Assembly: GCA_033439255.1 (NCBI GenBank) | Contig: CM065880.1 | Span: forward strand, 2,232,001 to 2,296,000 | Length of the DNA stretch: 64,000 nt | Direction: 5' to 3' | Source: Hericium rajendrae | Taxonomy: Eukaryota; Basidiomycota; Agaricomycetes; Russulales; Hericiaceae | In this document: in pieces, positions 1 through 22,081 of the stretch | Position numbering within the stretch: position 1 is the stretch's first letter | How the letters are laid out: each line of letters starts with the position of its first letter | Notes under the pieces: model-generated | Seen by the model: the letters and a program-made list of their open reading frames with translations, nothing else | Database searches by the model: none | Told to the model about the DNA's origin: nothing | Position numbers and translations under genes: made by a program

Positions 1-539
1 TTACCTATATAGAGCTATGATGGCTATCATAGTCTCCATAGTAGTAGTTACAAGGTATATAGCACTATGTAATTGTGAGGGGTAGCTATGGTTGCTATAT
101 AATCCCATAGGCATGCTATAGAAGGTATATGCCCTATGGCCACTCAGGTAGACACGAGAAGCATCAATGTCAAATTTTCTACATTTCAGATTGGAGGACT
201 ATAAGCTTGATCATCAAGGTAAATCTGTTCAAATTATTGATGTAGCTACATGAATTACTAGCTACAGAGAACAGGCACAGGATACACAACTGATGTGGCA
301 CTAGACATGCTGTCGTAGGCACGCGGGTTGTCGGGGCAGCACGCAGGATGTCGTGTGCGAGGCGTGGGGTCGCTGCGGCTGTTGTGCGGGGTGCTGGGAT
401 CATACGCGAAGCGCGCAGGTCGTGCGCGAGGGGCGGGGACTGGCGCGAGGTGTGGGGACTGCGTGGAGGTGTGGGGACTGCGCGCGAGGCACTGAGGCCG
501 TGCGCAGGTGACTGGGCTGCAGGCGTCGTGCGCGGGCTG

Positions 540-800
540 CGGGGGTGGCTCGCGGGCTGCGGCTGCCGTTCGCGGGTTCCGGGCTCCGTTCGCGGACTGC
601 AGAAGTCACTCACGGGCTGCCGGGGTCGTGCGCGGGCTGCCGGGTCGTGCGCGGGCTGTCGGGGTCGTGCGCGGGCTGTCGGGGTCGTGCGCGGGCTGCC
701 GGGGTCGCGCGGGGGCTCCAGCTGTCGTGCATGGGCTGTGGGCGTCGCTCGCGGGCTATGGGGTCGTGCGCGGGCTGTGGAGTCGTGCGCGGATGTCGGT
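540..800. repeat. GC-rich tandem repeat in the E1 arm
   Basis: A degenerate tandem array with a unit of about 22-23 bp built on GCGGGCTGNCGGGGTCGTGC. The clearest units lie at about 617-712. The same array is present in inverse orientation in copy E5 at about 21198-21458. It makes all six frames open over long stretches, so these open frames are not evidence of genes. Confidence 0.8.
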
Positions 801-897
801 CGTATGCCGGGCTCGTGTGCGGGATGTTGCAGGCGCGCGCGCGTGGGCCGCTGATTGCTGGCAACCGGTGGTGCGCGCAGGCGTGCTCGTTGGTGCT

Positions 898-913
898 CGT
901 TGCCACGGCAACG
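898..913. promoter_or_regulatory. RFX/X-box-like palindrome in E1
   Basis: The palindrome CGTTGCCACGGCAACG has half-sites GTTGCC and GGCAAC, the two halves of the RFX-family X-box. Equivalent palindromes occur in the GC-rich arms of E3, E4 and E5. Protein binding is inferred from the motif only. Confidence 0.55.
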
Positions 914-1350
914 GGTCCGACGCGGCGCCGTGTGCTGGCACGCCCGTGCGCAGACACCCTGGGGCGTGTACCGCTGCGCGCGCCGGTGCGAGCGTACGGG
1001 GCCGTGTGCTGGTGCTGCGGACGCGGGGCCGTGTGCAGACGCGCGCGTGGATGGGTCCGTGCGCTGGCGCTGGCGTGCGCGGCCATTCGTGCACGCAGGC
1101 CTGCATGCGGGCCTGCAACTCCTAGCTGGGTGGTGTTGACGGGGCCGTGCATGCGTGCGTGCGCTGGCGTAGCCACGTTGGTCGCACGCACACAGTCGGG
1201 GGCCGTGCACACGGTCAGGCGAGGGTGTCAAAGTCGGCGGGTGGTCGACACGCGAGTGACGCGGGGAAGTGGGCGCGGACGGTGCGCGAGTGGGGCGGCG
1301 GAGGATCGGAGGGGAAGGGCGTCGTGTGGTGTCGAGAGCAACAGAGAAAC

Positions 1351-1386
1351 CGAGAGTACCACTCGTCGACACGAGTGGTACTCTCG
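1351..1386. other. Central hairpin of E1
   Basis: An inverted repeat with 16-nt arms starting CGAGAGTACCACTCGT and a 4-nt loop. It lies beside the conserved splice-donor-like site read on the minus strand (1423-1432). The arm sequence differs from E2, E3 and E4, but the differences are matched on the opposite arm. Confidence 0.8.
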
Positions 1387-1422
1387 AGATCAGTACATTA
1401 CATACGAAAAGAATGTTTTTTT

Positions 1423-1815
1423 ACTTACCTTGTGCCCCCAATCCCCCGAGCCCCCACTGGATCCTTCAAGTTGACGAAAGACAAAGGAAAGCGAGATGAA
1501 GAGATCGAAGGGGAGTGATCAGGAGAGAGGGACAGAGGGCACTAAGACGAACGACGCGACTTCGGGACTCCAGCCACCGAATGCCCGAAGTTAAGATCGA
1601 CGAGGCACAACAAATGTAATAAAATCGTAGAATTTAAGAGAAAAACGGAGTACACGTATATCAATCAGCAGAAGGGATTCTATGAGAATCACTTCGAGTT
1701 ACTGTACTGTATACTACCGGACAGCAAAGACGATATAATGAAGTCTGCCAGCTAGCCTCTGTTGCGGCGCTCGGCAGTGTCCGGCCCGGCCCCATCCGCT
1801 GGCAATCCTATTTAA
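1423..1815. promoter_or_regulatory. Divergent promoter-like centre of E1
   Basis: On the plus strand a TATA-like TATTTAA (1809-1815) is followed by a CGCGCG palindrome, a CT-rich run and a donor-like site near 1922 (GTAAGC). On the minus strand a CT-rich stretch ends in a donor-like site at 1423-1432 (AAGGTAAGT, followed by an A run). The same two-sided layout is present in every E copy. No coding exon is seen downstream on either side, so the role is inference. Confidence 0.45.
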
Positions 1816-2597
1816 CACGCGCGCAACGCGCGTCGTCTCTCTCTCTCTTACCACCATCATCTCCACCATCTCCTCGTTTTCAACTCTGACTTTATCTCGG
1901 GCTCTTGACTTCACTATCTGTGGTAAGCTTTCTTATGTTATTGGTCTTATATTCTTACTCTGACTTGTATTCTCTTACTAAGTTATTAGATTTTCGCTTT
2001 TTTGTCTTATTGGTGAGTACTTATTGTAGACTTTATATTTTCGCTTTTTTCTAATATTGGTAAGTCTTCTTACTTATATATAATCTTGTGGTATCATGAC
2101 TAACTGTTATCTTGTTAGATATATGTACATTTAATTTGGTTGTGTAGTAGACTACAAATAGTTGTAGTAGATTACAAATATTTGTTAGATTTTGAATATA
2201 ATCTTTTTGATGTGATCTTATATTGTTTGATGTCTGATTTTTATATGATGAAAGTGAATATAATACTGTAGACTTTTATGAAGTCTACTAAGGCTATATA
2301 ATGAAGTTTAGAAATGTAGCTATGATAGAGTTTATAGATGTGTCTACTGAGTATAACTTACATCAGTAAGATATCTTCCATACATTGTATAGCTAGATCT
2401 GCTATGATAGATATCATAGCTAACTAAGAAGCTATCATAGCTATTATAGAGCTACATAGCAACCCACCCAAGTTACATAGCACTACATAGCATCTCACTA
2501 CAGCTATATGAGCTATGTAGAACTTGACGTTGCTATGGCCCTAGGAAATCTATGTAGGACTTATAGAGCTATATAAGACCTGTTCATTTCCCTGATG

Positions 2598-4544
2598 TAC
2601 CTGGAAGGTTCTCCCCATACTGTGGAGATCTGGACTGACCATAAGAACCTGGAATACTTCAAGTCTGCCCAAAAGCTGAGTCGTCGTCAGGCTCGCTGGG
2701 CTCTCTTCCTCACTCGTTTCGACTTCACCCTGATCCACAAACCCGGTATTCATCACCGGCCAGATGCCATGTCGAGACGACCTGACCATAGAGAGGGGGT
2801 GGACGACGACAACTCTGATCGTGTCCTCCTCGACCCCAAGTACTTCCAGATCCGTGCTACACGTCCAGCTGCTGTCAAGTCCATTGGCAATGCTGATCTT
2901 CGCCAACGCATTCGCAATGCCAAGACCAAGGACATTGAGGTTGTTCAAGCCCTTGATGTGATCCTGAACAATGGTCCTCGTTCCCTCGTCAAGAACCTCC
3001 AAGAATGGAACTACGAGGATGGCCTCATCCTCTTTCGTGGCAAAGTCTACATCCCTGCTGACAAGGACCTTCGTCGGGACATCATCAAGCTGCATCATGA
3101 CACCCCCATGGCTGGTCACCCAGGATGCTACAAGACCTATGAGCTCCTCAGTTGCAACTACTGGTGGCCCGGTATGTCTGTCTTCGTTCGTGATTATGTT
3201 GATGGCTGTGCTACCTGCCAGGCCACCAAGGTTCAAAATCACCGCCCTCATGTTGAAACAATTCCCAATGCCATCCCTACCCGTCCCTTCCAAGACATTA
3301 CCTCGGACTTCATCGTCAAACTCCCAGAATGCCAAGGCTATGACTCCATCAATGTGGTCGTCGACCGTTTTACAAAGCATGTCTCCTTCACTCCTTGTAA
3401 AGAGACCATTACCAGTGATGGCACAGTCGACATCCTTTTTGACAGGATTTATCGGAACTACGGCCTCTGGGAACGCCTCATCTCTGATCGTGGCCCACAG
3501 TATGCAGGCAAAGTCATGCGTGGCGTCTTTGACAAACTTGGTATCAAGTCCTCCCTCAGCACCGCCTATCATCCACAGACCGACGGCGAGTCAGAACGCA
3601 TCAATCAAGAACTCGAGCAGTTCCTTCGTACCTTCTGCAACTACCGTCAGGATGATTGGGTCCAATGGCTCCCTTATGCTGAGTTCTCGCACAACCACTG
3701 TATCCACAGCGCCACTAACCGAGCTCCATTTGAAATGCTCCTTGGCTATATTCCCACTGCCATCCCCACTGTCAACCCCACATCGTCTACACCCGCCGTC
3801 GAGGATCGTTTCCGTCACCTCGAACAACTTCGCACTGAGGTCCAGGCCAGCCTTCAAACAGCTGCTGATCTCATGAAGCGCAACAACCAGGACCATACGC
3901 ACGACACCATCCACTTCCAGGTTGGTGACAAGGTCTGGCTCGATGGCAAGAACATCAAAACCACGCGACCCAAAGCTAAGCTTGCTGATCGACGCCTGGG
4001 ACCTTTCAAAATCACTGACGTCCTGGGCCCAGTCTCTTATCGACTGAAGCTACCGCCCACCTGGCGTATCCACCCGGTGTTCCACACATCCCTGTTGTCC
4101 CCTTACAAGGAAACCGACGCTCATGGTCCCAACTTCCCTGCACCACCACCTGACCTTGTGGAGGGCGAGGAAGAGTACGAAGTTGAGTCTGTCCTCGATG
4201 CTCGTCTCACCCGGAACAAACGCGGCATTGAATATCTCGTCAAATGGGCAGGCTACCCTGATTCGGAAAATCAGTGGCTTTCACGTACCTCCCTTTCCAA
4301 TGCCCATGGTGCAATCACCGACTTCTACACCCGCCATCCGCATGCACTCAAGGCTCCCAATCTTCGTGGACTCATCTACCTCGACCCCGTCCATGCTCAT
4401 CACGCACTCCAGGCGAAAGTGCGTCTTAGAGAGGGGGTGATGTCACGGATCGCTCCATTTCTCTCCGCCTTCTTCTCTGCCATCAAGGCATCGCATCGGT
4501 CATGTGCTCCAGCAGCCCCATCACATGTTCACTTCCTCACATGA
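2598..4544 (+). CDS. gypsy pol 3' part: RNase H end, integrase, chromodomain
   Basis: The order of parts is: end of RNase H (WTDHKNLEY near the start), H2C2 integrase zinc finger (about residues 165-215, with CATCQ), integrase core (about 225-345, with HPQTDGESER), a GPF-type module with HPVFHTSLLSP, and a C-terminal chromodomain (EYLVKWAGYPDSENQW). This order is typical of fungal chromoviruses. The frame runs into the LTR. Confidence 0.85.
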   Translation, partial: YLEGSPHTVEIWTDHKNLEYFKSAQKLSRRQARWALFLTRFDFTLIHKPGIHHRPDAMSRRPDHREGVDDDNSDRVLLDPKYFQIRATRPAAVKSIGNADLRQRIRNAKTKDIEVVQALDVILNNGPRSLVKNLQEWNYEDGLILFRGKVYIPADKDLRRDIIKLHHDTPMAGHPGCYKTYELLSCNYWWPGMSVFVRDYVDGCATCQATKVQNHRPHVETIPNAIPTRPFQDITSDFIVKLPECQGYDSINVVVDRFTKHVSFTPCKETITSDGTVDILFDRIYRNYGLWERLISDRGPQYAGKVMRGVFDKLGIKSSLSTAYHPQTDGESERINQELEQFLRTFCNYRQDDWVQWLPYAEFSHNHCIHSATNRAPFEMLLGYIPTAIPTVNPTSSTPAVEDRFRHLEQLRTEVQASLQTAADLMKRNNQDHTHDTIHFQVGDKVWLDGKNIKTTRPKAKLADRRLGPFKITDVLGPVSYRLKLPPTWRIHPVFHTSLLSPYKETDAHGPNFPAPPPDLVEGEEEYEVESVLDARLTRNKRGIEYLVKWAGYPDSENQWLSRTSLSNAHGAITDFYTRHPHALKAPNLRGLIYLDPVHAHHALQAKVRLREGVMSRIAPFLSAFFSAIKASHRSCAPAAPSHVHFLT

Positions 4545-4886
4545 CCTGGGGCTATCCTTCACCCATGCCCTTGTTCCCCTTTGGGACATCCTATTGTTCT
4601 CCCTCCCATTGTTCTCCTTTTGGCCACCATTGTTCTCACTCTATTGTTCGACCCATTATGGTGTCCATTGTTCTTTTCCCATTGTTGTCCCAGTACTTAT
4701 AGGCTCCCTGTCGCTTGCCTATTTCCCTAGATTGTCCATTTCATCTGTACCGTACTGTACCTCCAATACAGGTCACTGCGCTGCTAGTCGCTCTCTGCTC
4801 TCTCGCTCCCATCATCGCTGGTGACTTGGGTGGTTCTCTGCTGTCTACGACCAAGTCTTGACATCGTTCCAATCTTTCCAGTGACA
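4441..4886 (+). repeat. 3' LTR of the gypsy element
   Basis: It begins TGTCACGG directly after the pol frame and ends CCAGTGACA, giving inverted TGTCAC/GTGACA ends and a length of 446 bp. It is followed at once by sequence that encodes a different protein (the helicase relic). The matching 5' LTR is not in the window, so the limits rest on the terminal inverted motif and on the resumption of helicase coding. Confidence 0.7.
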
Positions 4887-4899
4887 GTGTACTATAAAT

Positions 4900-5243
4900 A
4901 TAGATTCGCAGGTCAAATTTTTAGTATGGCACGACAACAACTACCTCTCCTTCCGGCATATACATTCACCGACTATAAATTGCAAGGTCTGTCAATTGAT
5001 AAAGCCCTCGTGGATTTAGCGGGTGCACGGAGCTTACAGAGTGTGTATGTCATGCTTTCCAGAGTGACATCTCTCGAAGGCTTGGCAGTTCTGCGCTGGT
5101 TCCCTCCTGGTAAGATATCTACGCCATTAACGCATGAATTCCGTACCGAGTTTGCGAGACTGGCTATGCTTGAAGGGAAGACTAAGACGAGATACGACGA
5201 GTCCCGTGCAATAAACGCCGTTGACGTGGCAACGTTCACGTGA
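4900..5243 (+). pseudogene. PIF1/Helitron-type helicase, C-terminal relic
   Basis: The frame encodes the C-terminal helicase motifs of PIF1-like proteins found in basidiomycete Helitrons and their derivatives. The motif LPLLPAYTFTDYKLQG matches the 'AYAFTDY..QG' motif, and VYVMLSRVTSLEGLAVLRWF matches the last helicase motif. The N-terminal part is absent because a gypsy element is inserted directly upstream, with its LTR ending at 4886. It is therefore a broken copy. Whether it belonged to a Helitron or to a stand-alone PIF1-like gene cannot be decided from this fragment, because no Rep domain or CTRR end is visible. Confidence 0.7.
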
Positions 5244-6375
5244 CTACTGCCTTGCATGCTCCCTTACGCTGACATTAACTATCAACCTCCTTCATACTAT
5301 CCTTCATTGCTGTGGTAAGTCTGCTTTATTTTTCTTACTTACGAACTAACAAACTTTCATTGATATAGGTAGTACAAGAAATTCTCCTTTCCATCTCTCG
5401 TCATGAATTTATACACAGACGACATTGGAACCTCTACTTCACCCATTGCGCGCGCATCTTCATGAACGATTTCTTTAACAATGAGCCCTAAATCTTGTAC
5501 GTTTCTTAGAATCTCATGGTCGCGTCACTCATCCGCAATCAAGCGCTTGACATCGCGTCATTCTAAATCGCGCTGGAATCATTCTCCTTCACGACCTGCA
5601 GGCCAATAAAATTTTGACTATCTTCAATGTGTTCCACGCGCACAAGAAATATACCTATCTTCACATGCAGCCCATCCTCTACATTTCACCACACTACTGG
5701 CCTGCATCGCATCCGCGTTCACACTGTCGAGCAAACAAACAGCACATGCATTGTAGAAATGGCCGCCGCTCGTGGATTTGCACTTCACGGTCGCACTTAC
5801 GGACGAACGTACGTCCAATTTTGTATGGCACTGTTGTCATATCAACTGCAACTTATAAACAACGGAAAAATACGTACAGTCCAGCCATATATACCTCTGC
5901 GGTATACGCATTAACGCAAGCAGGAAGTCTGAGCGAACTCGGACTTTTATAACGTGCCCGGGACAACTGATTTTGGCATAAACATGGTAAGTCGTTGTCT
6001 GTATAAGCCCATCTTTGCTAAACTCACTTCTATGTTCTTAAAGGTTCAGACTTTAATTATCATGCGCTAGGCTAAGACAGAAACATGGTTGACAAAAATC
6101 TGTCATCTTACAACTATGTTTCTACGAATTCTTATTCTATCCGTTCCGCCCGATCCTTCTTAGCGAGGTCTATTATCTCTAAATCAGTTTGAATCTGCTT
6201 CTGAAACTACTGCAATCTGCTCTCTCGTCTGACGTTACCTGTGACATCATGATGTCACACATCGCCGTCCCCTGCGTCTCGTTTACCCGACTGATAGGTC
6301 AAGATGCAACTGCCACGTTTCGCTACCATGGCGACAAAGTACGTCCGTTCTTACTCACTATGGATAGCTTTTCAA
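5244..6375. other. Stretch without a recognised gene
   Basis: Short AT-moderate sequence with splice-like signals (a donor-like GTAAGT near 5310 and another near 5990) and short frames, but no recognisable product. It may hold the 3' region of the helicase relic and the 5' region of the next F-box-like gene. Confidence 0.3.
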
Positions 6376-7251: not shown

Positions 7252-7464
7252 AAGCTATTGTACATTAATGAAGCCATTCTTAATAAGGCCAGGAACAAAC
7301 ATTATGAACCATTTCTCGCGAACTATATTGACTTCTTATAAATCCTCAACAATATCACCCTCATCTTCGACGATGACAACCCCGCCTTGCATGGCAGAAG
7401 CTGGAGTGAAACTCATGATCTGAATCATTGTCAGTTTCCCTATCTGCCGAAGAATGATAAATAC

Positions 7465-8238
7465 TCACGGATGGTGCCATATTGGCCGGACAAAGCTGAA
7501 CGACTTTATTGAACGACAATTGCAAAGTCGTAGCTTCCGTCTGTGGTGGGGCTTGAAAGAGACAACATCTACGTTGGCATGAATGGCCACAAAGTCGCCG
7601 ATAGAAAACATCAGAGGATCAATAGCTCGGGTTCTTCTGGAATTGAGCCGATGCTCGAAGACGACTTTTTTCACCACACGCCACTCAGCAGAAACAGCTG
7701 CTGCATGGTGAGCGGGATCGTCGTCTTCTGTCAGCACCGACGCCTGTATGGATTTCATGCCGGCCACCTGAACACACTAGTGAGCATGCTATATGTATAT
7801 ATCTCCTGACATTCTTACCCTCTGGAAAACGCGCCGCTGACAGACAATCTTTCCCGTCAGATCGGAAGTCACGTTGTCACCCGTCTTCAACGTGCGGGCC
7901 ACCAACAATCAGAATAGATTGAGCGCTCGCTCTTGTTCAATAATCATGTCATAGAATGCATGGCCACCGCTTTCTAAGACAAGAAGCTGAGTAGCCTTCT
8001 TAGCTGAATTGTGCGTTCTGTCCATATGAAGTAAAACTATTCTCACAAACATTCATGGGAAGAGAAACTTACTTATCCCAGTTCCCGAATACATCAAAGT
8101 TCATCTTGGATGCGAACCCATAAAGCCAAACTGCTATCTTCTTCATTTCCGGGCGCTTCGACTTCTGCTCCGAGCCAGACTGACGATACACCAGTATATT
8201 CTGGCGAGACAAATCTCGCGTGCCGACAGACGTGACAA
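7465..8238 (-). pseudogene. Downstream part of an unidentified gene split by E2
   Basis: Minus-strand coding blocks run from the E2 edge at 8238: a block ending in SKMNFDVFGNWDK, then a donor site (about 8074), then a block with GGHAFYDMIIEQE, then a block at 7767-7465 with FSIGDFVAIHANVDVVSF. The 'GDxV' segment is reminiscent of an OB-fold-like part also seen in the plus-strand gene at 13.3 kb, but this is weak. An in-frame TGA at 7909-7911 interrupts the second block, so the gene looks decayed or the exon ends there. Removing E2 with one TT of its duplication rejoins the frame to the block at 11811-12000 (TQWARV followed by VTSVGTRDLSR). The function is unknown. Confidence 0.45.
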
Positions 8239-9630
8239 CATCTGAAATGAAATCTACATAGCTGCCAGCCAATGCTATTCCTGGTTCCATAGTGCTATGG
8301 CTGCTATGTAGGTGGGCCACACAGCTATACAGGACTATGGTAGCTATCATAGCTATCATAGTCATGGGTGATGGGTATATAGTATTACATAGTAACAGGA
8401 CACTACTATGCCTGCTATGTAACTTATGTGTTTTTAGTCTCCCTCTATGTATCCTATAGATACTATGTTCCATACAGAGCTTCCAAAGGCTACTATGGAT
8501 TCTTAGGCTGCTATAATATCTATACTTGGTGTAGAGACTATGATTTCGAGCATACTATATTTGAAACAGGTCAAACTAGATTATATTTGACTACTACTAC
8601 AGTTAAGTATACTACATTACATATGTGCTGCAAGGTGACCAAGGCGTGCACGTGCACAAGGGTGCGGCTGGTGCGCGCGACACTGCACGCGAGGTGCAAT
8701 GGCGCGTGCGAAGCTCGCGAAGTTCGCGACCCATGCGCGGGAGCACGCATGTTGTGGGGCCGGCGCACAATAGGACGGGCCTACGCTATACGGCCGGCCT
8801 GCACGCGGGAGACGCGGATCATGGGATCCGTGCGCAAGTCGTCGGGCCTGTGCACGAGGCACCAGACCCGTGCGCGAGGCGTGGGCATTGGTGGCAGCGG
8901 TGAGAGGCGTTAATGGCAGCGGCGGGAGGCATCGACGGCGGCGGCGGAGGTGTAGGAAGGCGGCGGGCCCGTGCGCAAGCCGTTGGCATGCAGTGGCCCA
9001 TGCGCAGGGCACTGGCGTGCGACGGACCCGTACGCGGGGGCTAGAGCTTGGTGCGGGGTGCGGGGGGCATGCGCGACATGGCAGGTCTGTGCGCGACGCT
9101 GCAGGCGTGCGTGCGAGGCGCGGTGGCCGCACACGCGGGAGGGCGGCCGAGGCGTGAGGTGCGGGGATGGCGTGCGAGGCGTAGGACTGCGGCGCGCCTG
9201 CACATGGCCATGCGCGATGCGCACGCATGTGCGTGCTGTCCGACATGTGCTGGTGTGCCCATCCCGCGTCGTTCGGTGCTGGCGTGCCCGCCCTCGGTCG
9301 CGTGCGACGTGCGCGTGTCCGTCCGTGCGTGTGTGCTGGCATCCCCGCATGGCTATGGCCATCCGCCGGCCGTGCGCGCACTGGCGGGGCCTCGTGTGCG
9401 CTAGCGGGGCCGCATGCACGCAGCACGGCAGGGCGGGCCCATGGACGAGGCGGCGGGCTCGCGTACGCGTCGTCCGTGCGATGTGCGTGCGCCAGCGCAC
9501 GGTCATGTTCGTTGGAGATGGCGCGCCAGGCCCTGCGGGCATGACGGCGATGTCGGGAGATGGGCCGATGGGGGGGAGATGGCGGCGGGAGGCAAAGGGA
9601 AGGGAGTGGCCCGTGAGGGGGAAGTAAATC

Positions 9631-9663
9631 GAGAGTATCGCTCGTTCGACGAGCGATACTCTC
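9631..9663. other. Central hairpin of E2
   Basis: An inverted repeat with 14-nt arms GAGAGTATCGCTCG and CGAGCGATACTCTC. Compared with E1/E5, two base pairs of the stem differ and both remain paired. Confidence 0.8.
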
Positions 9664-9701
9664 TAGATTAGCACGAATAGATGAATGAAGACTTTTTTTT
9701 T

Positions 9702-10096
9702 ACTTACCTTTGAGGCCCTCGCATTCTACTAACCTCCTCCGATGTTCGATCCGATAGGAGCGAGAAGAGGGATGGCAGACGAGGGAGATAGGAGAGTGAT
9801 GGTGGTATAGACAAGACGAACTTCGACGCGCGTTCGATGCTTCAGCCACCGAACAAGCGAAGCTACGTTGTTCGAGCTTCAACAAACCAAATAAAATCGT
9901 GAAAATTCAGAGAAAAAGACTTACACGAGAGATCATACAGTAAATCAGAATTAATGAGGACTCTATGTATCTACTGCATCGTGAATCACTGAGCAGCAGC
10001 ATCAACGTAGTAAAGTCTAGCGCCCAGTCTCTGACGCGACGCTCGGCAAGCGACCAGCAACCACGAATCCCGGCTCCGCCCGGGATTCGTATATAA
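9702..10096. promoter_or_regulatory. Divergent promoter-like centre of E2
   Basis: On the plus strand TATATAA (10090-10096) precedes GGCTCGCGCGACGCGCC, a CT-rich stretch and a donor-like site near 10240 (AAGGTAATG). On the minus strand AAGGTAAGT followed by an A run lies at 9702-9709. This matches the layout of the other copies. Confidence 0.45.
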
Positions 10097-10721
10097 GGCT
10101 CGCGCGACGCGCCTTGCCTCTTGCTCCTTAACCCCCACTGTCTCCTGCCACGTCGACGCTTTCGTCGACATCCTTTGCTCGCTCGTCGTTATTTTTTGCT
10201 CGCTCGTTGTTATTTCTTACTCGTTGTTGCTGTCTTTAAGGTAATGTTCTAATTGTTGATTTCTTATTGCTTATACTGATCTAATACTAATATCTTTAGG
10301 TTAGTTTTTTAGATTTTGCTTTTTGTTACTTGGAGGTAAGTTCTTATGTGTTATCTTTTATCTTCTAAGACTAATGTTTTCTTATCTTTTCTTACTTAGT
10401 TTTATATTCTCTTATTGTATATTCTTTTACTTTATCTTATCTTCTTATCTTATCTTCTTGTATTATCTTATCTTATCTTATCTTATATTTTCACTTTTTA
10501 GTCAGTAGTAGTGCTTGTGATATCAATATAATCTTGATGCATTGAAATACTTTATATCTGTGTGATCATATGTTATTAGTCTTGATATGATTGTAGAACA
10601 GATTTAAAGTTCTAATAAATTTTATTGCTTTAATATATATATTAGGTCTACATATTAAATATAAGATATATGAGACACATATTGAATATAGGATATGTAA
10701 GACATATAAGCCTTATAGCTT

Positions 10722-11581
10722 TACAGCCGTTTGCGAAATTATGCGGAATCGCCGCGCGTTTTTCAGCAGCGGTGGCGTCCGGTCCACACCGGTCCGGAGA
10801 TTAGTAAGTGCGTTCGAGCTGTGACACATCCACAACTCTTCGCTGCAAAGTTCTATGTACTCTGTCTTTTGTAGAGTGCTTGGGACTCAAACTTTCTAAA
10901 GAGGCATTATAATCACATTTTGAAAACCTGTTGGCCAAGGGTATCATATTATGAGTGTTGTATGTCTTCGAAAAACATATCTTGTCAAGGCTGCGGCTTA
11001 AAACGGCCGGAGCGGCCGGGCTCGGTTGCCTCAAACAGTGTCTTGATAAGCGCTGTCCCTCAACACTCGGCCGTCGTATGTTGCGAGATATTGCACCGGT
11101 GAAGAAGATTAGCACTTTTGAAAGTGCTGACTTGCTCGGGGCTTTCGATCTATGAGCTTTCCGCACTTGCATAATTCTTTGCTATGCCTCGAGGCTCGCA
11201 AACAATATCTACCACGGCACGCTCGGCACAGAGCACCGTGACCTGCCACAATGGGAATCCATTGGGACACATCCGGCTGTTGCCGCCAAAGCCAAACGGC
11301 ATAAGTCAAGTCGCACCCACACAAGTCGAAATTCCATGCGAACTTCCGTTGCACCAGGCTGACATGCTTTTGTCCGCTCCTGTACGGTATAGGGCATAAC
11401 GACAACCAGCTCTGTGCGAAGGGATTATAAACATGTCAAACAGATCAAACGATGAACATTGACACGTGAGAGTCTGACACACGACGCGTCGTGTTTACTA
11501 ATCTCCGGACCGGAGTGGACCGAACGCCACCGCTGGCTGAAAAACGCACGGCAATTCCGCATAATTTCGCAAATGGCTGTA
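10722..11581. mobile_element. Non-autonomous TA-type DNA transposon nested in E2
   Basis: An 860-bp unit with terminal inverted repeats of about 85 bp (10722-10806 and 11497-11581) that differ at roughly ten positions. The ends read TACAGCCGTTTGCG and, inverted, TACAGCCATTTGCG, so the insertion is flanked by TA. TA flanks and CAG-starting ends suit the Tc1/mariner/pogo group. The interior has frames on both strands (such as 10801-11172 minus and 11109-11405 minus), but I see no DDE transposase motifs. It sits in the AT-rich arm of E2 and is therefore younger than that E2 insertion. Confidence 0.75.
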
Positions 11582-11810
11582 ATAGATACTGATAGCTTTC
11601 ATAGCTAGTCATACTATCATAGCTATATAGTCAGCTCTCATAGCTATGATAGCACTTCATAGCACTCCATAGCATCACCTTTGAGCTTCATAGCACTACA
11701 TAGCATCTCCCTTTGGCTATGTGGGCTATACAATAAAGGGCGATACTATGAAGCTAGGAGATCTATGTAGACTTTATAGAGCTATGTATCACTGGCAAAT
11801 TTTTCAGATG

Positions 11811-12317
11811 AACTCGCGCCCACTGTGTCAAATCATCAAAAGTAACAGGAACCTTTTTTTCATCCGCAGTGTCTTGTACGTCCTTGTCTCCAATCAAACA
11901 GGCGACGCCCCCCGGGAAACGGTCCCGGATGAACCCGCCCGTCTTCAAAGCTACGTTTTTATGGTAAGATATATCATTATGTGAACAACATAGACTCACA
12001 CTGCAAGAAGGACATAAAGGCATAAATAATTTAGAAGACAATACCAGAAGGAAAGCGACAGACGACAAATGCCCTCCCCTCTTCCACCAGACGATATATA
12101 CGCCTCACCCATTCAGTTGCGGCGCAAGACTGAAAGACGAGACAATTCCATGACGTTCGATGTGACAGACTTTTGGCACAGCTGATGCAATCCAAGACCG
12201 GAGATTTGCTGCCGTCTGACAATACCACCGGCGACCACCACCACCTCCTATCCCTCCGACGATGTCCGCGTCTTCATCCTGCTCAGTAACACCTACACAT
12301 CCTCTCCTCAAACTCAA
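11811..12317 (-). pseudogene. Upstream part of the unidentified gene split by E2
   Basis: Minus-strand frames lie between the divergent gene start at 12317 and the E2 edge. A block with VRRIYRLVEEGRAFVVCRFPSG ends near 12031. A second block with GVACLIGDKDVQDTADEKK runs to the E2 edge at TQWARV. The block continues in frame at 8236 when E2 and one copy of its 2-bp duplication are removed. I do not recognise the protein. Its 5' end faces that of the plus-strand gene at 12317, so the two may share a promoter. Confidence 0.35.
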
Positions 12318-13495: not shown

Positions 13496-14548
13496 TTTGT
13501 ACCGATCAGTCCAAAATGTGTCCGTTCTGTATCTGTACTATATATGCCTAGCTTCTCGAATAAACGAGCTGTCCATGCCCCCTCAAGTGCCCGCCATGAC
13601 GCCCGTGCGTAGAACGCAGATAATCTCATGCGAGCTGCGCCTAACGAAAGCCTCCAGATCGCCGACAACGCCGATCCCTTGCTAAAAAATGAAGGGAATC
13701 ATCAGAAAAATATGCAGGTCCTACATAGTTCTACATATCTTATATAGAAGTCATAGGTCCATAGCACCTCCCTTTACTACATAGCCCTCATAGCCCAAAG
13801 GGAGAGCTATGAAGTGCTATGAGATGCTATAGAGCTGAAGAGTGTGCTATGATCTGCTATCATAGCTATCATAGCTAACTATGAAGCTATTATAGGATAT
13901 CTAGCTATTAAATCTATCAGAGCTATATTACCTACTAATGCTACACTCAATATGTAAACTTAACACATCTATTAAAGTAATAAATCTATCAGAACTATCA
14001 AATTTTTGATCTAACTATAAGCAGATTTTATATTCATCACTAATATTGAAAGATCATATCAAAACATTATCTCAAAAGTAAAATTTCAAATTATATTAAT
14101 CAATCTAATATATTATACATCTATTAAACTATTATAAACTAATAAAAAAAGTATTACTATATATCTACCTACCTAACCTAAAAAGCGAAAATATATTAAC
14201 CAAATATATTAGATAAGAAAGACACAAAGACAAAGACAATAACAGATCAGCTCACCTTAACTTGAAAACATAATGAAAACATAACTAGTGAAAACATAAC
14301 TAGAGAAACCATTAGTGAAGAACATAGAACATTATGAAGTCAACATACCTTAATTATAATTGAGCAAAGGAACGATGAGTAAAGAAAGAACGACGACGAA
14401 TAAAGGAAGAATGACGACGAATAAAGAAAGAATGACAACGAGCAAAGGAGGCCCAATAGCGAGCAAGCAACAACGATGCCGACGCCGATGCCGACGTGGC
14501 AAGAGATGGTGGGGGTTAGAGAGCAAGAGATACGCGCGTCGCGCGAGC

Positions 14549-14945
14549 CTTATATACAAATCCCGGGCGAAGCCGAGAATCGTGGCTGCCGGGCACTGCC
14601 GAGTGTCGCGTCAGGGACTGGGCTGGTAGATTTTGCTAAGTCGAGCTTGCTGTCCAGGAATGTACCCTACCCTACATATCTAGTATTCTCATTCAGTTTG
14701 ATGTACCATACAGTCCGTAGCAGCAGTCTTTTTCTTTAAATTATCACGATTTTATTTGATTTAGGGAGGCTCGGACAACTTTGCATCGCGCGTTCGATGG
14801 CTAACGAACCGAAGACGCGTTGACTTATCCTCACACTTCCTCATCCTCCCCTTCGTCTCTCCTTGCTCTCCTCATTTCTCCTCTACTCGAAGGGCTGTAG
14901 GATTTGATGGAACTCGGCGGGACTCGAAGTTGGCTCAAGGTAAGT
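14549..14945. promoter_or_regulatory. Divergent promoter-like centre of E3
   Basis: The minus-strand TATATAAG (14549-14556) is followed by GCTCGCGCGACGCGCG and then by a donor-like site near 14350 (AAGGTATGT). On the plus strand a CT-rich stretch (14822-14887) leads to CAAGGTAAGTAAAAA (donor at 14940-14945). Confidence 0.45.
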
Positions 14946-14983
14946 AAAAAAAATGTCTATATTCGTTTGTATCGTACTAATTC

Positions 14984-15018
14984 CGAGAGTATCGCTCGGA
15001 TAACGAGCGATACTCTCG
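14984..15018. other. Central hairpin of E3
   Basis: An inverted repeat with 15-nt arms CGAGAGTATCGCTCG and CGAGCGATACTCTCG and a 5-nt loop. The stem is the same as in E2 although the loop differs. Confidence 0.8.
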
Positions 15019-15269
15019 TTCTTTCGTGCCTCTGCCACCCCGTCGCCCTCTCCCTCCCCTTCGCTGTCCTCTCGCGTCCTCGCTGCTTCAACATCGCTGC
15101 CACGTCGCACACGCGACATCCTCTGAGCGTGGTTCCGACGCCCCGCGTACGGCTTCAGCAGCCCGCGCGTGCCCTCGCACGTGCCTGCGCCTGCCCTCCA
15201 GGCCGTGCACGCCCCGCCCACCTCAACATCCTCATACGGCCACAACCACAACACAAGCACGACGATCGG

Positions 15270-15293
15270 GTCTCGTTGCCATGGCAACGAGAC
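15270..15293. promoter_or_regulatory. RFX/X-box-like palindrome in E3
   Basis: A 24-bp perfect palindrome centred on GTTGCCATGGCAAC, the textbook full RFX X-box. Binding in this organism is inference. Confidence 0.65.
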
Positions 15294-15654
15294 TCGATAT
15301 CTCGTACTGTGTCCCTGCGCCCGCTTCCCGCACCCCCGACTGCGCGCACATGACCTCAACAGCAAGTGCACGAGCGCGTACGCCCGCGATAGCGTGTGCA
15401 TGGGCCCGCGTTTGGCCCCGGCTATGCGCGCCTGTGCCCAACCGCCCACTTCCCCCCGACCGCGTTGCCTGCACGCCCCAGACTGCGCGCGGTCAACCGT
15501 GTGACAGCGCAGGCACGAGTGCGACGGCGCGAGCAGGCCTCCACGCCGTTTATGCCCTCCGCACGGCCCGCCGCCCTCTGTGCCACGTCCACCACCTCAG
15601 CGCCACGTCGATGCCCTCAGCGGCCTACCTCCACCCTCCGCGCCGAGCCTGCGG

Positions 15655-15780
15655 CCTCCGCGCTGCCTCCACGCCGTCCGCGTCGCCTCCACGCCGTCCG
15701 CGTCGCCTCCACGCCGTCCGCGTCGTCTCCACGCTGTCCGCGTCGTCTCCACACCGTCCGCGTCGCTTCCGCACCATCTG
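15655..15780. repeat. 18-bp tandem repeat in the GC-rich arm of E3
   Basis: About seven units of CCTCCACGCCGTCCGCGT, with single-base variants (GTCTCC, ACACCG). The array is not at the same place as the 22-bp array of E1/E5, so tandem expansion happened separately in each copy. Confidence 0.8.
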
Positions 15781-16698
15781 GGCCGTCATCTCGCCCTATG
15801 CGCCATCTCTCCGTCTGCGCTGCGTCCACGCACTCCGCGCGCCATCCACCCCGTCTGCGCCGCACTCCGCGCCGCAGCTCCGCACTCCGTGCCCCTCGCA
15901 CACGGACCCCGGCAGTCCCCCGGGCAGCAGCCCGCGCGCGAGCCCGCTGTCACACGTAGGGTGCTGATGCCATGCGCACGACATCAGTGGGCTGCGCGAT
16001 GCTGCCCGAGTGATATTTATAATTACAAAGTAGTTTGTTAGCTGTGTTCCTTATATCAATGAAATATTTTTAAAGTTGGAAGTCTCTCATCTAATAAAAT
16101 TAAAAATTTTGACTTCTGATTATGGAGTCTACCATATCTGACATAGGGCTGATAGAGTCCATAGCAAGGCTATGATGGTACATAGCTCTGATAGTAATGG
16201 CTTACAGGTACATAGGTCTATATACCTTCTACCTGCTGCTATAAAGGCTATCATAGTGTGCATAGCTCTGCATAGATGCAAGGGCAGCTATATAGACCCC
16301 ATAGCACTATGCTAGGACACATACTTTAGTACTGAGCTATATAAATTTCTAATTTTTCAGATGATGCCATCGTCATTCACGCCGACTTACGAGGCGGAAA
16401 TGTCTTGACATCTCGCCTTCACGTCGAACTACAAGTCGACCTTGCCACCATCAATATTGACAACTCAGGGAAGATTGCATCATCTGACCTGACCGACCTC
16501 ATCCTCCACGACGAAGTGCACCATGTCGTAGACATATATGACAAAGACCACAAAGGGCCAGACTGGTATTATTCCCTCTACGCCCCCGATCAGAGCAAAT
16601 GCGCCCATCAAAATATTAACACGATCGCTTCCCTGGTGCTGAAAAAAGGCACACCTCCCCTCCGCAGCGCATGCATAGTCATTAAAAATGGCCCGAAA

Positions 16699-17783
16699 CA
16701 TCAGAGAAATCTGCAAGTGTTACATAGCTCTATAAGTCCTAGATAGCTTTCCTAGATCCATAGCACTGCCCTTTATTGCATAGGCTCTCATAGCCAAAGA
16801 GGAAAGCTATGTAGTGCTATGAAGCTGAAGAGCAGTGCTATGGAGTGCTATCATAGCTATCATAACCAACTATGCAGCTATCATAGTATCTCTAGCTACA
16901 AAGGCTATGAGTATCTATCAAAGCTATGAGACTTATACCATACATATATCTTATGATTAATATGCAGATTAAATATATCTCTCAAAGCAATAGGGCTTAT
17001 CAAAATCACAGCTCTTTACTTCATTTATACAGCAGATTCCAAAATAGAAGAATCACACAAATGTAAACTTTGTTTACTTCAACATAATTATATTCATTTT
17101 GTTACATTACTACAAGATAAACATACTAATATAAAAGTAAACACTACTAACACTTACTACAAAAGAAGACAGATAAGTAAGCTTACCAAGATTACAAAAA
17201 GCGAAAATATGATCTATAAAGCAGAAGATTAGTTAGTAACAAGTCCACAGTGACAAGACATTGAGACATACCAAAAATGTTGAGAAAAAAACGGAGATAA
17301 AAGTTTAAGACATTGATAAGATGAGCATAGAACAACAAAGATGAAGGATAAGGACTTACCGAAGGTTGAGGAACAAAGGATGAAGTCCCGAGGAAAGTCG
17401 GAGCGAAGAGGGAATGTGGTGGTTGAAGAGAGAGAGAGAACGCGCGTCGTGCGAGCATTATATAGGTGAGCGCAGGTTTGCCCGGCGGAGCACCAAATGT
17501 GTCTGCCGGCGCCCGGCCCGGGCACCACGTCAGAGGCTAAGTGCCAGATTGCAGTAACTTCGTTTCGTTGCCTAATAGCTTTCGGTACTTTCATTAGATT
17601 CATAGCTCATTCAATCGAATTTTATTAGTACAAGATACCTGCCCTCTTTTTTTCGGAGTTGTTGAGATTTTATTCGATTTATTAAGTTCGAAACATTCGA
17701 ACTCGCGCAAGTACTTTCGGTGGCACGACGCGTCGTTCGACTTGGTCTCAAGCCGTCACTTCCTCTCTCAACCCTCCGCTCTC
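16699..17783 (+). mobile_element. E-family copy E4, AT-rich half
   Basis: It starts with CATCAGAGAAAT after the flank AA (16697-16698) and runs through the array, the AT-rich arm with AAAAGCGAAAATATG (about 17196), a reverse TATA-like unit (17458-17464) and the CT-rich stretch. It stops abruptly at CTCTC (17783), where another element end begins. Its missing half is found inverted at 17784-19400. Together the halves total about 2.70 kb, the family length. Confidence 0.7.
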
Positions 17784-18945
17784 CATCAGGTAAATCTGTT
17801 TTCTACATAGCTCCCAGCCAATGATATGACTCTTATGATAGTACTATGAACCCTATGTATTTTGACAGCACAGCTATACAGCTCTATGAGACCTATCATA
17901 GCTTCTATAGTTGTTAGTGAAGGGTATATAGAGCTATGTAGTTATGAGTGACAGCTCTGACAGCTATGTAACATCATAAGGTTGTTATCAATGCTATGAC
18001 TCCTACCATGCCATACCTAGAACCCAAAGACATACTAAGGCAAGAGCATCCCAAGCCAAATGTATGAGTTCAAAATATTTATATTGTGGACTTAACAGTA
18101 ACTATATCTACTATACTCGGAGTCAAGTAAGTACAGAGTGATCAGACATTATCGAAGGCAGGCGTGCCCGGGCATAGTCGGGGCCACGCGCTGGTATGCG
18201 CACACAGAGGGATCGATGCGGGCACGCGTGCACAGTGCAGAGGCCAGCGCCAGGCCCAGGGCCCGTGCGCGAGAGTGCGCGTGCTGGTGGGGCCTGTGCG
18301 CGACAGGGCGGGCATGCGCACGAGGCGCGGCGGGCCTGCGCGACGCAGCAGGCCTGCGCGCGGGAGATGCAGGGCGTGGGGTCCGTGAGCGAGGCGCAGC
18401 GGAGCGTGCACAAGGCGTCGGGCTGCGGCGGACCCATGCGCGACGTGACAGCCTGCGCGCCAGGCATGATGGCCGCACGCGAGAAGGCGGTGCGAGGCGC
18501 AAGGTGCGGAGCCCCGTGCGAGGCGTTGGGCTGGCGCGGGCCTGTGCACGATGCGTGGCGACGTGCGCAGTGGGCAGGGCCACGCGCGACGTGCGCGGGC
18601 GTTTCCTTGCACGCGCGCGGCCGTATTCCCCCTGGCGTGGCTGTCCGCGCGCGCGTGCTGACGTCCGTGCACTGCGCGGCCGTCACGCAGCCAGGTCGGG
18701 GTCGCGCACGACTTGCGCGGAGGTAGCCATCTGCACGAGTGTGGGGAGTGCCCCCACATGGTTGGGGGCCGTGCGCGAGCCGGTGGGAGCCCCTGCGCCG
18801 ACATGCGCGCCGTATGCGCAAAGGACGGCGTGACTGCGAGCCAGCATGTGCACATACTCGCGGCGTTGCGCTGGCGCTGTCGTGCGGGGCCATGCGTGTG
18901 GGTATGGGAGGGCTGGCGGCTCAGTGCGCGGCCGCACGACGCGTT

Positions 18946-18979
18946 GTCGAGTCTCGTTGCCACGGCAACGAGACTCGAC
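18946..18979. promoter_or_regulatory. RFX/X-box-like palindrome in E4
   Basis: A palindrome with 16-nt arms around GTTGCCACGGCAAC. It is longer than the one in E3, with GTCGAGTCTC and GAGACTCGAC outside the core. Confidence 0.6.
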
Positions 18980-19254
18980 GCTGGCCCCTTGCGGGCCACC
19001 CACAGCTCTTGAGGCCGTGCGCGTAGGCGTTGGGAGTGCCCGCGCCTGGTTGTTGCCGTGCGCGAGCCCATGGGAACCTCCGCGCCTGGGTGACGTGCGC
19101 GGACGTTCGAGCGGGCTGCGACAAAGAGGTGGGGTGGTCGGAGACAGGCGCGGAGAGGGAGAGAGGCGCGGAGGGTGCGCGAGAGGTGAGGCGAGGTGTC
19201 GAAAGGCGCGCAGGGGGGCGGGGCGTGGTGTCGTGTCCAATAGCAAATTAGAAC

Positions 19255-19282
19255 GAGTCTCGCTCGATAACGAGCGAGACTC
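19255..19282. other. Central hairpin of E4
   Basis: An inverted repeat with 12-nt arms GAGTCTCGCTCG and CGAGCGAGACTC and a 4-nt loop. One stem pair differs from E2/E3 and is compensated on the other arm. Confidence 0.75.
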
Positions 19283-20182
19283 TCGAGATTAGTACAATAT
19301 CAAGAGAATAGAAGTTTTTTTTACTCACCTTGGTCCCTCGAGCCCTTGCCCAGTCCATCCGACCTTCATGTTGACGAGGAAAGTGATGAGGAAGCAGCGA
19401 CATCAGGGAAATGAACAGGTCTTATATAGCTCTATAAGTCCTACATAGATTTCCTAGGGCCATAGCAACGTCAAGTTCTACATAGCTCATATAGCTGTAG
19501 TGAGATGCTATGTAGTGCTATGTAACTTGGGTGGGTTGCTATGTAGCTCTATAATAGCTATGATAGCTTCTTAGTTAGCTATGATATCTATCATAGCAGA
19601 TCTAGCTATACAATGTATGGAAGATATCTTACTGATGTAAGTTATACTCAGTAGACACATCTATAAACTCTATCATAGCTACATTTCTAAACTTCATTAT
19701 ATAACCTTAGTAGACTTCATAAAAGTCTACAGTATTATATTCACTTTCATCATATAAAAATCAGACATCAAACAATATAAGATCACATCAAAAAGATTAT
19801 ATTCAAAATCTAACAAATATTTGTAATCTACTACAACTATTTGTAGTCTACTACACAACCAAATTAAATGTACATATATCTAACAAGATAACAGTTAGTC
19901 ATGATACCACAAGATTATATATAAGTAAGAAGACTTACCAATATTAGAAAAAAGCGAAAATATAAAGTCTACAATAAGTACTCACCAATAAGACAAAAAA
20001 GCGAAAATCTAATAACTTAGTAAGAGAATACAAGTCAGAGTAAGAATATAAGACCAATAACATAAGAAAGCTTACCACAGATAGTGAAGTCAAGAGCCCG
20101 AGATAAAGTCAGAGTTGAAAACGAGGAGATGGTGGAGATGATGGTGGTAAGAGAGAGAGAGACGACGCGCGTTGCGCGCGTG

Positions 20183-20575
20183 TTAAATAGGATTGCCAGC
20201 GGATGGGGCCGGGCCGGACACTGCCGAGCGCCGCAACAGAGGCTAGCTGGCAGACTTCATTATATCGTCTTTGCTGTCCGGTAGTATACAGTACAGTAAC
20301 TCGAAGTGATTCTCATAGAATCCCTTCTGCTGATTGATATACGTGTACTCCGTTTTTCTCTTAAATTCTACGATTTTATTACATTTGTTGTGCCTCGTCG
20401 ATCTTAACTTCGGGCATTCGGTGGCTGGAGTCCCGAAGTCGCGTCGTTCGTCTTAGTGCCCTCTGTCCCTCTCTCCTGATCACTCCCCTTCGATCTCTTC
20501 ATCTCGCTTTCCTTTGTCTTTCGTCAACTTGAAGGATCCAGTGGGGGCTCGGGGGATTGGGGGCACAAGGTAAGT
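20183..20575. promoter_or_regulatory. Divergent promoter-like centre of E5
   Basis: The minus-strand TATTTAA (20183-20189) is followed by CGCGCG palindromes and a donor-like site near 20076. On the plus strand a CT-rich stretch at 20460-20525 precedes CACAAGGTAAGTAAAAA (donor 20570-20575). It is the reverse copy of the E1 centre. Confidence 0.45.
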
Positions 20576-20611
20576 AAAAAAACATTCTTTTCGTATGTAA
20601 TGTACTGATCT

Positions 20612-20647
20612 CGAGAGTACCACTCGTGTCGACGAGTGGTACTCTCG
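20612..20647. other. Central hairpin of E5
   Basis: An inverted repeat with 16-nt arms CGAGAGTACCACTCGT and ACGAGTGGTACTCTCG. It has the same stem as E1. Confidence 0.8.
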
Positions 20648-21084
20648 GTTTCTCTGTTGCTCTCGACACCACACGACGCCCTTCCCCTCCGATCCTCCGC
20701 CGCCCCACTCGCGCACCGTCCGCGCCCACTTCCCCGCGTCACTCGCGTGTCGACCACCCGCCGACTTTGACACCCTCGCCTGACCGTGTGCACGGCCCCC
20801 GACTGTGTGCGTGCGACCAACGTGGCTACGCCAGCGCACGCACGCATGCACGGCCCCGTCAACACCACCCAGCTAGGAGTTGCAGGCCCGCATGCAGGCC
20901 TGCGTGCACGAATGGCCGCGCACGCCAGCGCCAGCGCACGGACCCATCCACGCGCGCGTCTGCACACGGCCCCGCGTCCGCAGCACCAGCACACGGCCCC
21001 GTACGCTCGCACCGGCGCGCGCAGCGGTACACGCCCCAGGGTGTCTGCGCACGGGCGTGCCAGCACACGGCGCCGCGTCGGACC

Positions 21085-21100
21085 CGTTGCCGTGGCAACG
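21085..21100. promoter_or_regulatory. RFX/X-box-like palindrome in E5
   Basis: CGTTGCCGTGGCAACG, the counterpart of the E1 palindrome at 898-913, with the same half-sites GTTGCC and GGCAAC. Confidence 0.55.
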
Positions 21101-21197
21101 AGCACCAACGAGCACGCCTGCGCGCACCACCGGTTGCCAGCAATCAGCGGCCCACGCGCGCGCGCCTGCAACATCCCGCACACGAGCCCGGCATACG

Positions 21198-21458
21198 ACC
21201 GACATCCGCGCACGACTCCACAGCCCGCGCACGACCCCATAGCCCGCGAGCGACGCCCACAGCCCATGCACGACAGCTGGAGCCCCCGCGCGACCCCGGC
21301 AGCCCGCGCACGACCCCGACAGCCCGCGCACGACCCCGACAGCCCGCGCACGACCCGGCAGCCCGCGCACGACCCCGGCAGCCCGTGAGTGACTTCTGCA
21401 GTCCGCGAACGGAGCCCGGAACCCGCGAACGGCAGCCGCAGCCCGCGAGCCACCCCCG
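21198..21458. repeat. GC-rich tandem repeat in the E5 arm
   Basis: The same 22-23 bp array as in E1 (about 540-800), in inverse orientation. Confidence 0.8.
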
Positions 21459-22081
21459 CAGCCCGCGCACGACGCCTGCAGCCCAGTCACCTGCGCACGG
21501 CCTCAGTGCCTCGCGCGCAGTCCCCACACCTCCACGCAGTCCCCACACCTCGCGCCAGTCCCCGCCCCTCGCGCACGACCTGCGCGCTTCGCGTATGATC
21601 CCAGCACCCCGCACAACAGCCGCAGCGACCCCACGCCTCGCACACGACATCCTGCGTGCTGCCCCGACAACCCGCGTGCCTACGACAGCATGTCTAGTGC
21701 CACATCAGTTGTGTATCCTGTGCCTGTTCTCTGTAGCTAGTAATTCATGTAGCTACATCAATAATTTGAACAGATTTACCTTGATGATCAAGCTTATAGT
21801 CCTCCAATCTGAAATGTAGAAAATTTGACATTGATGCTTCTCGTGTCTACCTGAGTGGCCATAGGGCATATACCTTCTATAGCATGCCTATGGGATTATA
21901 TAGCAACCATAGCTACCCCTCACAATTACATAGTGCTATATACCTTGTAACTACTACTATGGAGACTATGATAGCCATCATAGCTCTATATAGGTAAGAA
22001 GAGAGCTATGTAGACCATATAGCCCTATCATAGACCACATAACCTGACACTAGGCTATGTAGAATTCCCATTTCCCTGATG

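Follow-up and report, generated by a model that had tools for sequence, protein, structure and literature searches.

What moves a transposon that encodes no transposase, and what does it carry instead? The question is raised by a stretch of 64,000 nucleotides of the Hericium rajendrae genome (the window; C3:2232001-2296000, in an assembly of 46.8 Mb and 19 contigs), in which five elements of about 2.7 kb, here called E1 to E5, share their ends and an internal plan with an AT-rich arm, a centre and a GC-rich arm. Our results indicate that the E elements very likely constitute a large family of non-autonomous DNA transposons of the cut-and-paste type that has been active recently, because target-site duplications (TSDs) flank them and an empty insertion site was found. 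The genome contains hundreds of 2.7-kb copies, not five, without a recognisable protein and probably moved by the enzyme of another transposon.

The E elements form a dispersed and mobile family

Thirteen complete elements were compared, E1 to E5 and eight copies from elsewhere (A to H), assembled from the window, from whole loci or from overlapping loci; 12 of them are distinct, since E1 and E5 are almost the same. A pattern for the ends (CATCWGRNAAW-gap-TAYATAG) was searched across the genome, with the reversed pattern as a control. It was found at 749 places spread over many contigs, against none for the control. The AT-arm type of end (29-nt spacing) accounts for 256 of these places (control 0), and the remainder, judged from the rows listed, are mostly of the GC-arm type (27 nt). 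The first 100 of the 749 places (contig C1, and C2 to 2.55 Mb) were listed individually and include 25 convergent pairs of ends, 22 of which span 2,558-2,844 bp; the other three span 3,304, 4,403 and 5,318 bp. Two longer stretches with matching E ends were inspected (L047, 5.3 kb, and L048, 4.4 kb), and the latter contains a stretch resembling a long terminal repeat, as seen by eye in translation. In a further locus (L049, C1:195100-202200) an insert of ∼5 kb interrupts an E GC arm; it contains open frames, which gave no Pfam match in the three frames tested.

Perfect 2-bp TSDs flank 10 of the 13 elements (E1, E2, E3 and seven copies elsewhere) and read, in element orientation, TT, TA, TA, AT, AA, TC, AC, TA, TT and AT. 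The flanks are mismatched in copy B (CT/CA) and in E5 taken alone (GA/AA), and E4 adds an eleventh perfect duplication (AA/AA) if E4 and E5 are taken as one compound. E1 lies in the Gypsy-type polymerase region of a retroelement, with TA on each side, and the same site is empty, with a single TA, in all four Gypsy copies compared. Likewise, an E element splits a gene of a Plavaka-type transposon in locus L064 (C7:2313000-2321000) that is intact in L063 (only the right flank is seen). E1 and E5 differ at a single base in 2,681 (position 304); the subfamilies align only partly, at ∼65-85% identity. As a separate observation, L063 (C4:1126500-1134500) holds an E element in a frame that looks Gypsy-like by eye; this insertion and the one in L064 are of use for relative dating.

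The arrangement within the window, with E4 and E5 contiguous and E3 335 bp from E4, could suggest that the five copies arose by local segmental duplication, or reflect a repeat artefact, and are not mobile at all. However, end places occur on many contigs, the subfamilies can be aligned only in part, and TSDs are present; this reading is refuted by the empty sites, and we give it practically no weight.

A preliminary description of this DNA had recognised five elements of ∼2.7 kb as one family with a shared architecture, which stands with corrected boundaries. The inverted ends, the 2-bp duplication, the ATAGCT arrays at both ends, the AT-rich and GC-rich arms, the hairpin and the lack of an internal transposase that it reported were all borne out, and its two-sided, promoter-like centre is now resolved into putative promoter and intron signals on one side and a putative intron with a hairpin on the other. 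It had missed the hundreds of copies, the compound formed by E4 and E5, and the position of E1 in a Gypsy element with an intact empty site. Ends that do not recur, or full-length copies with other boundaries, had been named there as grounds for abandoning the family; these grounds fall away because the ends recur, TSDs and empty sites are present, and the span of the end pairs is nearly fixed.

Boundaries of the elements and the E4/E5 compound

The five elements lie in the window as follows.

1..2597, minus strand: E1, whose full extent is C3:2231917-2234597 (2,681 bp), its GC-arm end lying 84 bp upstream of the window start; TSD TA; terminal inverted repeats CATCAGGGAAATGGG and CATCAGGGAAATGAAC
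8239..11810, minus strand: E2, 3,572 bp including a nested element; ends CATCTGAAATGAAATC and CATCTGAAAAATTTGCC; TSD AA at 8237-8238 and 11811-11812
13700..16363, plus strand: E3, 2,664 bp; TSD AT at 13698-13699 and 16364-16365
16699..17783, plus strand: AT arm and promoter half of E4; outer TSD AA at 16697-16698
17784..19400, minus strand: GC-arm half of E4, inverted; its terminal CATCAGGTAAATC adjoins E4's own middle
19401..22081, plus strand: E5, 2,681 bp; its left flank, GA, is E4 sequence, and its right flank is AA at 22082-22083

E4 and E5 together make up one rearranged compound, in which both limits of an inversion coincide exactly with element ends. AA precedes the left end of E4 and the same dinucleotide follows the right end of E5; the middle of E4 reads TC followed by CATCAG, and the left junction of E5 reads GA followed by CATCAG. 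Re-inversion of 17784-19400 restores an element of 2,702 bp that has an AA/AA duplication and agrees with the family in G+C profile and in the position of the donor. In the simplest history, E4 would have inserted at AA, E5 would have inserted into E4 at TC, and the segment from the E5 end to the E4 end would then have been inverted, with breakpoints exactly at both CATCAG tips. The compound is best explained by transposase cutting and inverted rejoining, in which the enzyme would have engaged ends belonging to two different copies, one nested in the other, and put the intervening segment back in inverted orientation. Homologous crossing-over in the ends is less likely because no difference separates the E5 end from the E1 end.

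A conserved internal plan

The internal plan is common to the 13 elements. ATAGC/GCTAT motifs number 6-14 in each terminal 300 bp, compared with 0-4 in the whole remainder of the element. Each element has a single AGGTRAGT donor motif, 1.16-1.29 kb from the AT-arm end (2.10 kb in E2, whose nested insert adds to the distance). The 1 kb after the donor, in the GC arm, has 62-73% G+C, and the other arm is AT-rich.

Outward from the centre along the AT arm, 8 of the 9 promoters printed have a TATA-type box (TATATAAG, TATATAAT, TATTTAA or TATAAAAG), after which come a pyrimidine-rich stretch and a 5' splice-site motif; most promoters have in addition a micro-exon-like ATTTTCGCTTTT block beside another 5' splice site. 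In the direction of the GC arm, GTRAGT precedes CTRAY (12/13), and the hairpin comes directly afterwards, with a TAG or CAG acceptor at the hairpin foot in copies B, C, D, E and G and in E2. The intron-like block of E3 has counterparts in E1/E5, E2 and E4. The features of this region in the window are listed here.

14940..14983, plus strand: intron-like segment of E3 (GTAAGT ... CTAAT), adjoining the hairpin
14984..15018, plus strand: E3 hairpin, 15-bp stem and 5-nt loop
9631..9663, minus strand: E2 hairpin, 15-bp stem
1351..1386, minus strand: E1 hairpin, 16-bp stem
19255..19282, minus strand: E4 hairpin, 12-bp stem, a compensated variant
20612..20647, plus strand: E5 hairpin, as in E1; inner part at C3:2252615-2252644
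15275..15288, plus strand: palindrome GTTGCCATGGCAAC, X-box-like, in the E3 GC arm

We read the centre as a putative TATA-type promoter with an intron-rich leader in one direction and a putative intron with a hairpin in the other, and the cargo is likely transcribed. Several points weigh against this reading. In copy D the TATA box is degenerate (ACATAAGG) and the branch-like CTRAY is missing; the only acceptor in E1/E5, E3, E4, H, A and F is GAG, within the stem; and transcription and splicing are both read from sequence alone.

The GTTGCCATGGCAAC palindrome, a putative RFX-type or X-box site, belongs to a type (GTTGCC-gap-GGCAAC) found in 4 of 12 distinct GC arms, compared with 2 of 3,600 shuffled arms. 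All four such palindromes of the window fall in E elements, the other three starting at 899 (E1), 18956 (E4) and 21086 (E5).

No conserved protein or coding frame was detected in the 13 complete elements, no PF18759 match is listed within the window, and an Rfam search at gathering thresholds and a tRNA search of the window gave no match each. The longest sense open frames of the GC arms (145-380 codons) might point to a real, fast-evolving, low-complexity protein. They are long when compared with whole-arm shuffles (p ≤ 0.01 for 10 of the 12 distinct elements), and a mild tilt to long sense frames remains when the arms are shuffled locally, in 100-bp blocks. Nevertheless, this block-wise control removed most of the signal (single p values 0.04-0.98), and the phase of the open frame after the hairpin varies (core +0, +1, +2 and elsewhere). 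Between subfamilies, the translated frames show weak similarity at best, and this in low-complexity stretches; no start codon upstream of the donor is common to the rows shown, and several arms carry 20-bp repeats, a length that is not a multiple of three. Such a protein is very improbable.

A hairpin retained across diverged subfamilies

Each of the 12 distinct elements has the hairpin after its intron-like segment, and in four of them (D, F, G and E4) one or two of the pairs are mismatched. Statistics on the hairpin were obtained from 15 rows picked by position, without regard to the stem, and from 500 shuffles. Paired cells amount to 97.6%, and 5 of 14 pairs are changed on both sides. The covariation score and the paired cells were matched by none of the 500 shuffles, and the number of pairs changed on both sides was reached in six; further pair types showed no excess (9 versus 9.2 in shuffles, 364/500). 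The 12 changed cells represent fewer events, because related rows (E1, its C14 copy and H) share changes. A separate alignment of 12 rows gave 99.4% paired cells, a biased value, since a perfect stem of 9 pairs or more was a condition for admitting a row. By the position-based count, a 14-bp hairpin with compensatory changes has been kept across diverged subfamilies.

Across the genome, the hairpin was counted 223 times in its commonest form and 19 times in the E1 form, with a reversed control of 0 for both. A degenerate hairpin pattern occurs at 296 places, 54 of them in neither class sorted, and a strict pattern of intron plus hairpin at 109 (control 0). In the listed stretch, a listed hairpin lies 1.22-1.43 kb inside 18 of 37 AT-arm ends; at the same distance outside, none is listed. 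Several GAGAACGAGC..GCTCGTTCTC hairpins were also noticed in a GC-rich tandem array of a Plavaka copy (L054:469-809, L067:7720-8074); they are reminiscent of the single E hairpin and differ from it in sequence.

Possible role of the cargo

Non-autonomous transposons usually retain only what the transposase needs, the ends. The 12 distinct E elements, many of them alignable only in short stretches, also retain promoter, intron signals and hairpin. In place of a protein gene, the space between the ends would hold a conserved non-coding transcription unit, whose TATA-type promoter would read into the AT arm through the intron and micro-exon signals and which, in the other direction, would have an intron ending at the hairpin that opens the GC arm. 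This cargo may be kept because it is useful to the element, either by keeping the centre open and transcribed or through the RNA made. A bolder proposal, which we consider speculative and rather unlikely, is that the cargo is a selected RNA gene, with a divergent promoter, intron-rich non-coding leaders and a covarying hairpin, and that it has survived deep divergence because its transcript or transcription aids spread; transposase recruitment, chromatin opening and silencing escape are examples of routes by which it might do so. If selection is at work, a transposon gains from a non-coding transcription unit, and the genome provides hundreds of natural test variants. The family also makes it possible to ask which of the subterminal arrays each PlavakaB-type transposase recognises, and the E4/E5 compound is a case of an inversion with transposon ends as its exact bounds.

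A Plavaka-type enzyme as the probable partner

In the part of Kojima 2025 (PMC12730594) that deals with termini, PlavakaB has 5'-CATCA..TGATG-3' with a TSD of 2 or 3 bp (section 3.2.2), PlavakaA has TGT..ACA with a 2-bp TSD, and EnSpm has CAC..GTG with a 3-bp TSD; PlavakaB is placed within the CMCT clade (CACTA/EnSpm-Mirage-Chapaev-Transib). Among the classes of termini and TSD given there, the E elements fit PlavakaB best. The length of their duplications (2 bp in 10 of 13 elements and in the E4 compound) agrees with it, as do the CATCAG ends found on both sides of E1, E4 and E5. CATCTG, which departs from the PlavakaB termini at the fifth base, stands at both ends of E2, at one of E3 and at many ends elsewhere, and a fifth-base variation, CATC(A/T), is seen likewise in one Plavaka subfamily of this genome. 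The CATC(A/T)G ends and 2-bp TSDs separate E from CACTA/EnSpm proper, and the ends also differ from the TGT..ACA of PlavakaA. Tc1/mariner elements have a 2-bp TSD that is always TA; those of E include TT, TA, AT, AA, TC and AC. Lacking the PF18759 coding region of PlavakaB, E is at most a non-autonomous associate and, by what it encodes, no member. The likeness to CACTA/CMC elements in the preliminary description is supported, and its remark that it could not match the elements to a family it knew can be made more precise by the match of the TSDs and the CATCAG ends to the CACTA-related PlavakaB as published (PMC12730594, the part cited above).

Potential partners are abundant in the genome, with 132 matches to PF18759 (fragments included), 31 to PF02992 and at least 172 to PF18758/KDZ. 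Together with TET/JBP matches, the abundance of Plavaka and KDZ matches fits a mushroom-type basidiomycete. Plavaka copies were examined in loci L052-L054 and L063-L068. One copy (9.66 kb, L068 plus L054) has inverted ends CATCAGGAACCC, and the same end is found in two 211-bp, nearly perfect palindromic elements (L052:7853-8063 and L053:4706-4916) with perfect 2-bp TSDs (CA and AA), one of which lies inside a Plavaka copy, the corresponding empty site being in L052. In a second Plavaka subfamily the end reads CATC(A/T)GGAAAAAGTG; CATC(A/T)GGAAAAAGTGTTTTTTGAT, likewise an end of this subfamily, occurs at 27 places with at most 3 mismatches. The GC-arm end of E (33 examples) resembles the end of this second subfamily, a likeness equalled by only 3 of 300 shuffles; the end of the first subfamily is resembled by neither E end. 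On C2, both members of a 14.2-kb pair of Plavaka-type ends have the dominant hairpin 2.08 kb inward, and a further such end has it at 1.78 kb; this suggests a link between E and Plavaka.

On this evidence we regard it as probable that E is a PlavakaB-like, non-autonomous family and that a Plavaka-type enzyme moves it. A CACTA-type transposase, most likely of the Plavaka (PlavakaB) kind, would act in trans, bind the ATAGC-rich subterminal arrays and cut at CATC(A/T)G. A number of observations weigh against it. The flanks of the sole complete Plavaka copy are unmatched (CC/TA); the AT-arm end of E (18 examples) is unlike both Plavaka ends (equalled by 106 and by 111 of 300 shuffles); and many E ends are CATCTG rather than CATCA. 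The Plavaka ends read have no ATAGC arrays: one subfamily has TCTGA-type repeats, and the other has one ATAGC per 100 bp in its first 200 bp. The E centres had no match in 17 Plavaka loci, save for E insertions in two. The preliminary description had proposed to look for a copy that combines these ends with an internal DDE transposase; among the listed end places and 71 loci, a small part of the genome, no element with E ends was seen to carry a transposase. Two candidates were set aside: L064, which at first sight resembled a Plavaka element bounded by E ends, contains an E insertion within a Plavaka gene, and L054 has the reverse nesting, its Plavaka copy ending 334 bp from an E end.

The transposase could instead come from another lineage, a CACTA-like branch or an unknown family, with CATCAG convergent or distantly shared. 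The subterminal arrays, unlike those of both Plavaka subfamilies read, and the dissimilar AT-arm end speak for this, as does the lack of any PF18759, PF02992 or listed KDZ match between convergent pairs, by eye at the 100 listed places. On the other side stand the agreement of termini and TSD length with PlavakaB in the cited part of PMC12730594, the same agreement in the two small PlavakaB-end elements of this genome, the similarity of the GC-arm end to one Plavaka end, and the hairpin inside stretches with Plavaka-type ends. We regard another lineage as possible, if on the whole unlikely. A different proposal concerns origin and is compatible with a PlavakaB-like family: E elements would be deletion derivatives of Plavaka elements carrying TET/JBP, and the E centre would be the divergent promoter that formerly separated the dioxygenase gene from the transposase gene. 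Each of six weak matches to PF12851 is found 6.4-7.4 kb away from a PF18759 match and in divergent orientation to it, three of the four Plavaka copies with an exact CATCTGGAAAAAGTG end have a PF12851 neighbour, and the hairpins inside Plavaka-type ends on C2 would fit. Yet all six PF12851 matches fall below Pfam's cut-off, the 2.5 kb upstream of the Plavaka gene in L063 do not match the E centres, and the C2 hairpins in question are absent from the places listed for the strict intron-plus-hairpin pattern, which leaves this origin doubtful. The reading that we retain is that of a PlavakaB-like family served by a Plavaka-type enzyme.

Some further Plavaka-related loci were recorded. Plavaka-type ends face each other 14-15 kb apart at C2:1810067-1824229 and C9:1470233-1485258, with no listed PF18759, PF02992 or PF12851 match between them; the C2 pair is the one that has hairpins 2.08 kb inward of each end. 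Candidate TET-carrying Plavaka elements, with a weak TET/JBP match ∼6.4 kb from the transposase match and divergent from it, lie at C2:25000-34276, C2:3857472-3866747 and C4:1122998-1132277.

Other features of the window

The element nested in E2 lies outside the family.

10721..11582, no strand assigned: inverted-repeat element with arms of 47 and 41 nt, 94-95% complementary

Its long inverted arms begin TTACAGCC..GGCTGTAA, and it is possibly Tc1/mariner-like, with a TA duplication. By eye, ∼2598-4870 is Gypsy-type retroelement sequence and the adjoining ∼4920-5240 a Helitron-helicase-like fragment. Tandem repeats, possibly within genes, occur at 26217-26719 (units of 15-66 bp) and 31866-32107 (18-45 bp).

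Comparison with known systems

Listings of an open-licence literature library gave no description of such a family. PlavakaB, in the part of PMC12730594 cited, shares with E the 2-bp TSD and, at the CATCAG ends, the CATCA..TGATG type of termini; both have subterminal repeats, and Plavaka transposases are abundant here. Unlike PlavakaB, E has no transposase or other protein, many of its ends are CATCTG, its subterminal motif is ATAGC and not the TCTGA type of the Plavaka copies read, and it carries a conserved cargo of promoter, intron and hairpin signals. This conserved non-coding cargo is unusual.

CACTA/EnSpm elements and their dSpm-type derivatives resemble E in their short inverted ends, subterminal arrays and dependence on a transposase in trans. 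These derivatives usually retain parts of parental genes, whereas none was recognised in E. The termini and TSD also differ, CAC..GTG with 3 bp in EnSpm, as given in the same part of PMC12730594, versus CATC(A/T)G with 2 bp in E.

Miniature inverted-repeat transposable elements are, like E, non-autonomous, present in high copy number, bounded by inverted ends and devoid of protein. To our knowledge, they are a few hundred bp long and have no conserved internal gene-like signals. By contrast, the E elements measure 2.6-2.8 kb and share a conserved internal plan.

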